In this document: one piece after another, positions 4,584 to 33,649 of the stretch
Layout of the letters: every line of letters begins with the position of its first letter
How positions within the stretch are numbered: position 1 is the stretch's first letter
DNA from: a virus
Virus record (IMG/VR): IMGVR_UViG_3300031239_000010
Span: 1 to 33,649 of that record
Length of the DNA stretch: 33,649 bases
Reading direction: 5' to 3' (one strand)
The notes under the pieces: generated by a model
Seen by the model: the letters and a program-made list of their open reading frames with translations, nothing else
What the model was told of the DNA's origin: nothing
The model's database searches: none
Translations under genes and position numbers: made by a program

Positions 4584-5024
4584 ATGCGTTTTCAGCCTGA
4601 CGGATACTCTTGCGGCCCCGTGGCAGCAATGAACGTTATCCAGGCAATGACAGGGCGAAGACCCCACCGGGCGACCTTCCTGAAAGACTCGGGGACCTCC
4701 AAAACCAACGGGACAACCCACTTCGGGCTCCAGCAAGCTATCGAGCGGGCCGGGTTCAAGCCGGTGGAGATCGCAGGGGCGTTTGATACCGCTTACGAAA
4801 CGCTCCAGGACTGCTTGGCGAAGGGCTGGGGAGCCGTTTTGCTGACCGAGCGAGGGAACCACTGGATAGCGGCTGTGGGTCGCCTGGGAGAGCGCGTAGC
4901 GGTGTTTGACAGCTTCCCCCACAGCGGCCACCCGGGCGTCCATGTGTATTCCAGGGCCCAGCTCCGAAGAGTCTGGACTCCCTGCGGCCCGGGTGGCCGC
5001 TACGCTATTGCCGTTACGCGCTAA
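4584..5024 (+). CDS. C39/papain-like cysteine peptidase
   Basis: A 146-aa protein with the signature of a papain-fold peptidase close to the C39 family. Gln4 and Cys10 sit in QPDGYSCGPVAAMN (oxyanion Gln and nucleophile Cys), His93 in GNHWIAAVG and Asp109 in RVAVFDSF. Spacing and order match the compact C39 core. No signal peptide, no attached binding domain. Being alone on the plus strand with the same start signal as tail genes suggests late expression; processing of a virion protein or cell-wall cleavage is possible. It could be catalytically a transglutaminase-like relative. Start ATG is fixed by the CAATCT signal. Confidence 0.7.
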   Translation: MRFQPDGYSCGPVAAMNVIQAMTGRRPHRATFLKDSGTSKTNGTTHFGLQQAIERAGFKPVEIAGAFDTAYETLQDCLAKGWGAVLLTERGNHWIAAVGRLGERVAVFDSFPHSGHPGVHVYSRAQLRRVWTPCGPGGRYAIAVTR

Positions 5025-12509: not shown

Positions 12510-13055
12510 TTAGTTGGGGAGACAAGGGGCCGTATGGGTGGCGTCGCAGACATGGAGCCCTACCGGCTCAAGGCCGAACATGGCATCTACACCCTTCTGT
12601 AGCGTCGATCCGGTCGGGTCGCTACAGGTGGTCGGGTCAGAGCCGTAAAACTCGACCGGATGGTCGTGGACACCCAGGACCTCTTCGTTGTGGATTAGCT
12701 CGTGGGCGAGGGCCGACGGCCACAGAGCCCAGGAAGAATCGGGTGCCATTACGATGGTGAGGTCGCCCTCGGTCAACCCAGTGACGCATTCCCCCGTCTG
12801 GGGATTGGTGAATCCTTGCCAGGGGAGACCCTGAAGGCGTCCGCCGTGATTGCAGGTGCCCGTACAGGTAACCGCCTTGGGGCCATACCAGTGGACCTCG
12901 GGCTTGGCGTTTGGCTTCCCATAAGCGGTGAGCGCTGCCTGCAGGTTCTCGGCCGCCATCACTGGGGCGGGTACCTCGAACTCAGGATTCACGACCAGCT
13001 GGGAACACCCCTGAAGGAGGAAAGCTGCCAGGGCGACAGTCATCAAGTTCTTCAT
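12510..13055 (-). CDS. Lipoprotein with HExxH metallopeptidase-like motif
   Basis: A 181-aa protein with a lipoprotein signal (basic MKN, hydrophobic core, lipobox LLQGC, Cys17), so it should be exported and lipid-anchored. HELIH at 118-122 is a zincin HExxH motif; following His residues (GVHDHP, about 130-132) could give the third zinc ligand. Cys pairs (CTGTC; C..) suggest disulphides in the periplasm. ATG lies 6 nt after the -10 box, so the mRNA is leaderless. It could be a peptidase or an inactive host-surface factor (for example superinfection exclusion). Family not recognised. Confidence 0.7.
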   Translation of the reverse strand: MKNLMTVALAAFLLQGCSQLVVNPEFEVPAPVMAAENLQAALTAYGKPNAKPEVHWYGPKAVTCTGTCNHGGRLQGLPWQGFTNPQTGECVTGLTEGDLTIVMAPDSSWALWPSALAHELIHNEEVLGVHDHPVEFYGSDPTTCSDPTGSTLQKGVDAMFGLEPVGLHVCDATHTAPCLPN

Positions 13056-13061
13056 GATTTA

Positions 13062-13089
13062 ATGATACTCGTCTTGGCAGCTTTGTCAA
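13062..13089 (-). promoter_or_regulatory. Sigma70-like promoter, leaderless type
   Basis: TTGACA (13084-13089), 16 bp AAGCTGCCAAGACGAG, TATCAT (13062-13067), then 6 nt to ATG 13055. Confidence 0.75.
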
Positions 13090-13281: not shown

Positions 13282-13628
13282 CGGTCTCCGCCGCCTTTGA
13301 TACGAAATGGAGAGTTTGCGGAGCGACGGGCGGCCCACTCCGGGAATCGCAGGGCTTGCAGCTTGAGGATGCCCAGGTCCGCCTTGCCGTGGTAGGTTTC
13401 CGACCCGATCGAAATGTCCTCCAGCTTGCCGCCGATGCGGGTGCGCTTGACGATTCGGAAAGCCTTGATTCCGACACGAATCATGTAGCCTTCCTTGTCC
13501 TGACCACGAACGCCGTAATAGCTGAAACGATTGCCCCCGGCCACCCGGAACAGCCCGGCGTCACGCAGGGTGGCCTCGACGGCGGTGCGCTTGTCGTTCT
13601 GGTTGCTGCGGGAAGTGATGGAAGTCAT
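13278..13628 (-). CDS. Hypothetical protein, 116 aa
   Basis: MTSITSRSNQNDKRTAVEAT; beta-rich middle (GYMIRVGIKAFRIVKRTRIG). It shares its first residues (MTSI) and its whole ribosome-site region (CTCAAGGAGCCGCCAATGAC) with the gene at 13700-14026, suggesting duplication of the promoter-leader-start unit. Function unknown. Confidence 0.75.
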   Translation of the reverse strand: MTSITSRSNQNDKRTAVEATLRDAGLFRVAGGNRFSYYGVRGQDKEGYMIRVGIKAFRIVKRTRIGGKLEDISIGSETYHGKADLGILKLQALRFPEWAARRSANSPFRIKGGGDR

Positions 13629-13699: not shown

Positions 13700-14026
13700 C
13701 TATTTCTTCGCTGCCCGCTTGCCGGCGTCCAGAAGGTACTTGCCGGTCGCCGCGATCATCTTCTCGCGCTCGGTGAAGTATTGCGTCTTTTGAGACGCGC
13801 CGTAGTCCTCCCCGTTGCGGGTGGAATGGGTCACCAGGGTGAAGTAGTGGCCCGGAGCGAGCCTATACCCCCAGCTTTCATTCTCATCGGTCAGCTCTTC
13901 GGAAACCATGTCGCAGGTCCCCTGGGTAATGCGCACCCCGATCTGGCGCCCCTTGGCATCCAAGAACCCGAGGTCGAAGTAAGCCGTTGCCTTGTCGTCA
14001 TTCTTCTTTACAACGATGGAAGTCAT
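13700..14026 (-). CDS. Hypothetical protein, 108 aa, below structured RNA leader
   Basis: MTSIVVKKNDDKATAYFDLG; beta-rich (RQIGVRITQGTCDMVSEEL; GHYFTLVTHSTR) with a basic C-terminus (YLLDAGKRAAKK). Ribosome site CAAGGAGCC. Its mRNA begins with the structured RNA at 14056-14169, so it is the only protein gene here with a long folded leader. Function unknown. Confidence 0.75.
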   Translation of the reverse strand: MTSIVVKKNDDKATAYFDLGFLDAKGRQIGVRITQGTCDMVSEELTDENESWGYRLAPGHYFTLVTHSTRNGEDYGASQKTQYFTEREKMIAATGKYLLDAGKRAAKK

Positions 14027-14055
14027 TGGCGGCTCCTTGAGAAGGTTTGAACAAA

Positions 14056-14169
14056 TGAGCGGGGCGGAGACCGGGGTGTCAATCGTAGGGCTGCAGTCCC
14101 TACAAGGTCCTCCGGGCGTTTAAGTCTCGGCTAACCGTTAGGCGCTTATCTTCATTTCCGCCCCGCTCA
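14056..14169 (-). ncRNA. Structured RNA R1 (novel leader or small RNA)
   Basis: The ends form a perfect 13-bp helix (14056-14068 with 14157-14169, GC-rich), extendable by a G-U and an A-U pair. Inside are a hairpin 14085-14090/14098-14103 (GTAGGG/CCCTAC) whose 7-nt loop contains self-complementary CTGCAG, a small hairpin at 14131-14141, and GGAGACC/GGTCCTCC pairing (14066-14072/14106-14113) that competes with the outer helix. The promoter at 14177-14204 predicts transcription start at about 14170, exactly the outer 5' base. No T-loop, so not a tRNA. No protein reading frame fits it. It may act as a small RNA or as a control element for the gene at 14026. Confidence 0.6.
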
Positions 14170-14176
14170 CAGAATT

Positions 14177-14204
14177 ACTCTACCAGACTATCAAAAGGTG
14201 TCAA
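14177..14204 (-). promoter_or_regulatory. Sigma70-like promoter of structured RNA R1
   Basis: TTGACA (14199-14204), 16 bp CCTTTTGATAGTCTGG, TAGAGT (14177-14182). The spacer is identical to the 4540-4567 promoter. Confidence 0.8.
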
Positions 14205-21475: not shown

Positions 21476-21498
21476 TGGGTGCCTTTCTTAAAAAAATG

Positions 21499-21621
21499 AA
21501 TAGACCTGCGTTTTAGCAGTGGGGCTAGCGACTTCCCCTCACTTTCACTTGTACGTTTGGGTTGCTATCCCAGGGTCCTTCTCTGAGGTGCCCGCGCAAG
21601 TCTTAGCTCCAGGTCTATTCA
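21499..21621 (-). ncRNA. Structured RNA R2 (related to R1)
   Basis: The ends pair perfectly over 12 bp (21499-21510 with 21610-21621). On the minus strand the closing helix is followed by ATTTTTTTAAG, terminator-like. Inside are ACTTG/CAAGT, a hairpin of 7-8 bp closing on GGGG...CCCC, and a hairpin GGGATAGCAACCC. That last element matches R1 (GGGACTGCAGCCC) as GGGANNGCANCCC, and both are preceded by GGACC and, further up, AGACTT. No T-loop or open frame. It lies between a tRNA-like gene and a small protein gene. Confidence 0.55.
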
Positions 21622-21777: not shown

Positions 21778-21784
21778 AACATCG

Positions 21785-21855
21785 GGGACCCGGCAGGATT
21801 CGACCCTGCACCTCAGGCCTTAACGGCTTGAGTTCTACCATTAAACTACGGGTCC
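21785..21855 (-). tRNA. tRNA-like gene, anticodon uncertain (TTA by position)
   Basis: Acceptor GGACCCG/CGGGTCC, D arm GTTT/GAAC with GG-containing loop, T arm GCAGG-GTCGAAT-CCTGC (T54 replaced by G). Anticodon arm CAAGC-CGTTAAG-GCCTG gives TTA at 34-36, which would read UAA stop, but position 33 is G, not T, and C32-G38 can pair. A G at 21856 can pair with discriminator C, the G-1:C73 trait of tRNA-His. CCA is not encoded (CGA). Identity open. Confidence 0.55.
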
Positions 21856-22670: not shown

Positions 22671-22706
22671 TTTATACCCTTGCGTAGCGGGGGCCCGAAT
22701 AAAAAC

Positions 22707-22778
22707 ACACGCATCTTACCAACCCGGTGGCCAATCCAGGGCAAGCGGTCCTCCGGCCGGAGGACCTTTGCGGCGTGT
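22707..22778 (-). terminator. Possible terminator with large loop after the tmRNA
   Basis: ACACGC/GCGTGT (22773-22778 with 22707-22712) followed by GTTTTTATT on the minus strand. The loop holds the 20-nt palindrome at 22747-22766. It could end the tmRNA transcript, or the whole unit could be a third structured RNA; the short closing stem makes either call weak. Confidence 0.35.
22747..22766. repeat. Perfect 20-nt palindrome
   Basis: GGTCCTCCGG followed by its exact complement CCGGAGGACC. The 10-mer CCGGAGGACC also occurs in structured RNA R1 (14106-14115, minus strand). It lies between the tmRNA 3' end and the next gene. Confidence 0.6.
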
Positions 22779-32845: not shown

Positions 32846-33649
32846 TTAAAAAAGGCTCCAAGTGCTTCCGTCATAAACTAGCATATAAGGGCTACCCAAC
32901 ACTGGCACAACTGGCGAGCCAGTCTTAGTCTTGATGCCTCCCGCCGACGCCGAGTGACCCAACGTGATAGAAGCAGAGTTGGGAATCAACACGATAATCG
33001 AGCCCGATTGCCAGCCCGTAGTGGTGATAGCCGTAACGGGTGTCGTGCCGCTTAGAACAAAAACATTCCCGTCGTTGCCGAGGGTGATGGTCGCGGCGCT
33101 GGCGACGGTCGCGCCCTTGCCCTGCTGGTGGCGCGTGTTGTGCTGAAGCCCGTTGGCGTTGACGTGGAATTGCTGAGTGGTCGCCGACGCGAAGCCGATG
33201 TCACCAGCGCCGATGCGCCACATTCCCGTGCCGGTGTCAGCGTTGAACGAATAGGACGGGGTGGTGTTGCCGCCGCCGGCGTTTGCCAGGATCGAGGCGT
33301 TAAAGACCAACGTGGTCCCCGACACCTGCATCAGTACGGTGCCGCCGGTCTGGAGTCCGACAGCGGTCGTGGTCGCCTTGCCCATCCAGACCGAGACGTT
33401 GTTGACCGATAGGACCTGCCAGTTTCCGCCGCCGAGAGAGATGATCTCGGCCGAGTCTCCGATGTCCAGGAGGATGCCCTGGGCGCCGCCTGGACAGAGA
33501 AGGGACGTGGAATTGTGAGTGAAACCGACGGATGACGCGGTGGTGTTCCGAAGTGTCACCCGCCGCCCGTTGGTGACCGTTCCGAAAGAGGTGATGTTGA
33601 CGGCACCGGCACCGGTGAGCAGGACGTATCCGCCCGAGACGGTCGAGAG
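32846..33649 (-). CDS. Partial tail fibre-like protein (5' end beyond window)
   Basis: The frame is open through the right edge, and codons before the GTG at 33559 read sensibly (GAGAVNITSFGTVTNGRR), so the true start lies outside. The 267 visible residues are beta-strand rich, Gly/Thr/Ser/Asn-rich, with fibre-like repeats (GNDGNVFVLSGTTPVTAITT; SYSFNADTGTGMWRIGAGDI) and end MLVYDGSTWSLF, typical of the C-terminus of phage fibre or tail-collar proteins. The GTG is an alternative start only if the gene were short. Confidence 0.75.
   Translation of the reverse strand, partial: LSTVSGGYVLLTGAGAVNITSFGTVTNGRRVTLRNTTASSVGFTHNSTSLLCPGGAQGILLDIGDSAEIISLGGGNWQVLSVNNVSVWMGKATTTAVGLQTGGTVLMQVSGTTLVFNASILANAGGGNTTPSYSFNADTGTGMWRIGAGDIGFASATTQQFHVNANGLQHNTRHQQGKGATVASAATITLGNDGNVFVLSGTTPVTAITTTGWQSGSIIVLIPNSASITLGHSASAGGIKTKTGSPVVPVLGSPYMLVYDGSTWSLF

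Follow-up and report, generated by a model that had tools for sequence, protein, structure and literature searches.

A perfect helix of 13 base pairs closes a 114-nt element, here called R1, and this helix is a real, non-random feature at the head (according to the predicted start) of one early phage mRNA. We propose, with a probability of about 0.4, that R1 is a 5'-terminal stem that would shield the early mRNA of the downstream gene from 5'-end-dependent decay. The proposal builds on the rarity of the 13-bp helix, the promoter that abuts it, the short leaders of the sister genes and a ribosome-binding site located outside R1. The helix, the promoter position, the leader comparison and the chance-level interior are read from the sequence, whereas the start, the transcription and the protection are what we infer.

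The window, i.e. the whole stretch of DNA analysed, is an entire IMG/VR record (IMGVR_UViG_3300031239_000010) of 33,649 bases. Its tail sheath shares 45% identity with the one from Myxococcus phage Mx1 (169.6 kb) and 48% with the tail sheath encoded in a 169-kb IMG/VR record (G001); by sequence, the phage is a large relative of Mx1, with a probable myxobacterial host. The window ends in 127 bases (33523-33649) that are identical to the first 127 of IMGVR_UViG_3300031239_000001 (G004, 132,208 bases). Assembly graphs leave overlaps of exactly this size between adjoining contigs, thus the two records are probably neighbouring pieces (~165.7 kb together) of a single phage of about 166 kb, of which a small part may be missing.

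The closing helix and its surroundings

The initial annotation described a 114-nt RNA with a 13-bp closing helix, and its coordinates proved exact: the inverted repeat is perfect, with 13 of 13 pairs formed between TGAGCGGGGCGGA and TCCGCCCCGCTCA and 88 nt between the arms (Table 1). Under a first-order Markov model of the window, 0.07 strict 13-bp inverted repeats with an outer span of 60-160 are expected per window. Two were observed, of which R1 is the sole non-coding one, the other lying within coding sequence. The 13-mer of the R1 arm does not recur in the window or in G004 at 0-1 mismatches, the nearest site having 2 mismatches. A 15-bp inverted repeat is located at 4923-5001 within the coding gene 4584-5024.

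Table 1. Positions of R1 and of the features of its leader and gene in the window.
Feature	Position	Strand	Basis
R1, 114-nt element closed by 13-bp helix	14056..14169	-	inverted repeat and fold
Closing helix, 5' arm, TGAGCGGGGCGGA	14157..14169	-	sequence and fold
Closing helix, 3' arm, TCCGCCCCGCTCA, then TTTGTTC	14056..14068	-	sequence and fold
Inner hairpin UUGUAGGG-ACUGCAG-CCCUACGA, 7-nt loop with CUGCAG	14083..14105	-	fold and suboptimal folds
Promoter TTGACA-N16-TAGAGT, TG before -10	14177..14204	-	10/12 matches; motif common to the early leaders of the phage
Predicted transcription start, G14170, 7 nt past the -10 hexamer	14170	-	inferred from promoter position
Shine-Dalgarno AAGGAG of the downstream gene, beyond R1	14033..14038	-	sequence and leader fold
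Gene served by the R1 leader, 108-aa protein, function unassigned	13700..14026	-	ORF and homology
Possible upstream ORF ATGAAGATAAGCGCCTAA (MKISA), without good Shine-Dalgarno	14138..14155	-	ORF check

On the minus strand R1 folds to -49.7 kcal/mol (z -4.2 versus dinucleotide shuffles), while the plus strand folds better, to -58.0 (z -4.9). This counts against a protective role, as there is no sign that the fold of the transcribed strand has been optimised. The structural signal resides in the closing helix and the 88-nt interior is at chance level, with -22.5 kcal/mol where shuffled sequences average -20.1 (z -0.8; 93 of 500 shuffles match or exceed its stability) and with its first 41 nt folding worse than the shuffled mean. 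The only well-defined pairing inside R1 is the hairpin with the ACUGCAG loop. This loop does contain the palindrome CUGCAG, as had been pointed out; since a 6-nt palindrome is expected by simple arithmetic in ~3% of cases in a given 7-nt loop, the suggested pairing between two molecules is not supported. A switch between folds had also been suggested, and competing inner pairings indeed occur among the suboptimal folds, but without the closing helix the best fold reaches only -22.5 kcal/mol instead of -49.7; the cost of ~27 kcal/mol renders an equilibrium switch implausible, and the interior offers only chance-level structure. During transcription the 5' arm is predicted to pair elsewhere until the 3' arm emerges, a transient pairing that is general to any closed element of this kind.

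A promoter scan of the minus strand revealed a strong promoter upstream of R1. It ends at 14177 and AATTCT occupies positions -6 to -1 before G14170, hence this nucleotide is likely +1 and R1 would extend from +2. The helix would thereby begin at +1/+2 of the transcript, ~1 nt after the predicted start, in agreement with the earlier view of a base-paired element at the transcription start, with the start predicted from the promoter position. In the fold of the full leader, the Shine-Dalgarno sequence and the AUG lie outside R1, the AUG being unpaired at 0.51-0.69, no less open than in the plain leader, and the Shine-Dalgarno positions at 0.20 to 0.77, a variation that arises from local pairing. 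Control of translation through sequestration is thus unlikely. The short upstream ORF within R1 is probably due to chance.

At 34-38% identity, the 108-aa protein encoded downstream matches hypothetical proteins from Caulobacter phage TMCBR3 and from Streptomyces phage SF3. Searches of PDB, Pfam, PHROGs and NCBIfam gave no match worth reporting for it, and its single-sequence structure model (pLDDT 50) was set aside. Gene 12510-13055 has a promoter on the minus strand, TTGACA-16-TATCAT (13062-13089), immediately before its start codon, and a stem of 16 pairs encloses this codon.

Sister leaders and the search for relatives

Of the five sister leaders, four lie in the window and one in G004. 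They have the same promoter and ribosome-binding architecture as the R1 leader and do not carry R1; they measure 38-42 nt from the -10 hexamer to the ATG, versus 150 nt for the R1 leader, and all five have TGTCCCGA(A)CG in common. The previously noted match between the leader of the R1 gene and that of the gene at 13628 was recovered at both ends, with AATTCT at the start and CTCAAGGAGCCGCCAATG at the end, the two leaders sharing the same CTCAAGGAGCCGCCAATGACTTCCATC end. R1 occupies the place where the sister leaders hold a short conserved sequence, also as proposed. Nevertheless, a clean insertion as a unit is not supported by the comparison: the TGTCCCGAACG block of the five sister leaders is absent from the R1 leader or degraded to TTTGTTCA. 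At the position of TGTCCCGAACGAAAACC in the sisters the R1 leader carries TTTGTTCAAACC, which implies either that the middle was replaced or that R1 was inserted and the bases after it subsequently eroded. Antisense action of R1 on the sister leaders was rejected, as the duplex energies were no better than with shuffled leaders.

Comparison of R1 with phage records by blastn gave no match even at E 10, and a single-sequence covariance model run on the window, Mx1 (~84%), G001, G002 and G004 recovered only R1 itself. Scans of IMG/VR with two inner 16-mers gave only chance matches in coding DNA of unrelated phages, and neither the hairpin 19-mer (IMG/VR and GTDB) nor the exact terminal-repeat pattern (GTDB species genomes) uncovered a relative, in exact-pattern scans that miss diverged copies and may exclude records very near the window. 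Promoter-anchored scans of IMG/VR returned only G004, a same-species fragment without the locus, and unrelated DNA; a same-species IMG/VR record of 28 kb breaks off inside the adjacent gene, short of R1. Furthermore, folds of the regions upstream of the homologous genes of TMCBR3 and SF3 contained no closing helix like that of R1, and the Rfam covariance models gave only two meaningless lncRNA matches (E 4-10). The conserved structured RNA envisaged in the initial annotation is not supported, with an outcome that is empty rather than negative: the searches yielded no homologue, and therefore no covariation or compensatory change. Nor is there a relative to indicate that the R1 helix is maintained, which counts against the protective reading.

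Two other long closed elements of the window were considered as relatives of R1 and rejected (alignment p 0.34 and 0.07); one reverse-complement comparison reached p 0.008, but this value depends on a palindrome and comes from a set of five tests. The element after the tRNA cluster (21497-21621, minus strand) is non-coding, 125 nt long and closed by a 12-bp inverted repeat, TGAATAGACCTG/CAGGTCTATTCA; seven T and a small ORF come after it. It has no Rfam match and resembles either a terminator of unusual size or a structured leader. The element downstream of the tmRNA (22701-22778, minus strand), with the palindrome GGTCCTCCGGCCGGAGGACC and the end GCGTGTGTTTTT, is terminator-like. In the same region, a tRNA with anticodon UUA (21784-21855, minus strand) was predicted to read the UAA stop codon. 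In a sample of 32 ORFs of the window, UAA ends 15, more than any other stop codon, thus its general reassignment is unlikely. An RNA ligase (PF09414; 19380-20471, minus strand) is encoded close to the tRNA cluster and possibly functions in tRNA repair.

A proposed protective stem and its competitors

In the proposed mechanism, transcription would begin 1 nt upstream of R1 and the first 13 nt of the R1 transcript would pair with the arm ~100 nt downstream. The GC-rich helix would bury the 5' end of the mRNA and leave the Shine-Dalgarno sequence and the start codon outside. The most likely effect would be that the buried end is hidden from 5'-end-dependent decay of the RNase E type, and the mRNA with R1 would be longer-lived than the sister mRNAs with short leaders; some weak termination at UUUGUU may accompany this effect. 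R1 itself probably entered, or grew within, a single copy of a promoter-leader module that had been duplicated. In vitro, cleavage by RNase E is more than 10 times faster at accessible 5'-monophosphate ends than at base-paired ones, and work cited in the same review describes stabilisation of the ompA and papA mRNAs by 5'-terminal stem-loops (PMC3997798). A GC-rich helix starting from nucleotide 1-2 is the arrangement by which mRNAs like those of ompA and papA are protected, and shielding of the 5' end is the reading that we favour for R1.

The main rival to the protective stem is partial termination at UUUGUU. Here R1 would be an attenuator or a source of short RNA, where the helix and the subsequent UUUGUUC end a fraction of transcription early, so that an RNA of ~121 nt is made and the gene is expressed less. 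As in intrinsic terminators and attenuators, the GC-rich stem of R1 is followed by a T-rich stretch (TTTGTTCA, 5 T in 8), and T runs also follow the other two long closed elements of the window, the one behind the tRNA cluster and the one behind the tmRNA. However, R1 has no detectable homology to these elements, its T tract is interrupted by a G, and the terminator scan, which expects loops of 3-8 nt, made no call on its 88-nt loop; we therefore regard attenuation as doubtful. A purely DNA-level role, in which R1 is a small insert with 13-bp terminal inverted repeats or a pair of repressor sites, would explain why the terminal repeats are clean and why the non-transcribed strand folds better, yet there is no second copy in ~165.7 kb of the phage or, as the exact pattern, in the GTDB species genomes, and no target-site duplication was seen, which makes this role unlikely. 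It is quite unlikely that a protein or a small molecule binds R1, as an operator, a riboswitch or an antitermination element, to control the single gene: the single copy does sit between promoter and gene and the outer fold is stable, but the interior structure is at chance level, Rfam offers no credible match up to E 10, no relative was found, the ribosome-binding site is left unsequestered and switching would cost 27 kcal/mol. Both the DNA-level repeat and the bound regulator are less likely than either the protective stem or partial termination. It also appears quite unlikely that R1 is a distinct, so far undescribed regulatory RNA of phages, gained as a unit by one copy of the duplicated early promoter-leader module and working either in cis or, once released, as an RNA of ~120 nt.

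By far the least probable reading makes R1 the RNA partner of a Ro (TROVE) protein, of a Y-RNA-like or tRNA-like type. The 5' and 3' ends of R1 pair and close the RNA as in YrlA (RF02553), and the relatives Mx1 and G002 have TROVE genes and carry YrlA-like RNAs, that of G002 directly upstream of its TROVE gene. Nevertheless, the YrlA model does not match R1 up to E 10, neither a T-loop nor any other tRNA-like module was seen in R1, and the two contigs of the phage, the window and G004, contain no TROVE match, though a Ro protein of the host is possible. The YrlA-like RNAs themselves, at L014 16758-16864 (G002 13386-13492, minus strand) and at 45169-45297 of Mx1 (OR576727.2), where the RNA is unannotated and lies within a tRNA cluster, both have permuted tRNA-like arms (T-arm, closed acceptor stem, D-arm) and score below the Rfam gathering score.

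R1 among known systems

Retron msr-msd RNAs likewise have paired 5' and 3' inverted repeats that close an RNA upstream of a gene; for R1 the downstream gene encodes the 108-aa protein rather than a reverse transcriptase, and this class was rejected as no reverse transcriptase (PF00078) was found in the window or in G004. R1 is an orphan of an ordinary kind with an unremarkable interior. If the protective reading is true, it would open no new kind of system and would add a further case in which a phage adjusts the output of one early gene through a base-paired mRNA front. The five sister leaders are natural controls for the R1 leader, and near-identical leaders with and without R1 allow a simple reporter comparison.

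Known mRNA stabilisers are shorter, simple hairpins. R1 differs from those of ompA and papA in its 114 nt, its 88-nt interior and its origin in a phage that probably infects myxobacteria, and stabilisation is predicted here. It nevertheless resembles the ompA and papA leaders of E. coli in two respects: the 5' end is predicted to be paired, with at most 1-2 unpaired nt, and the ribosome-binding site lies outside the stem.
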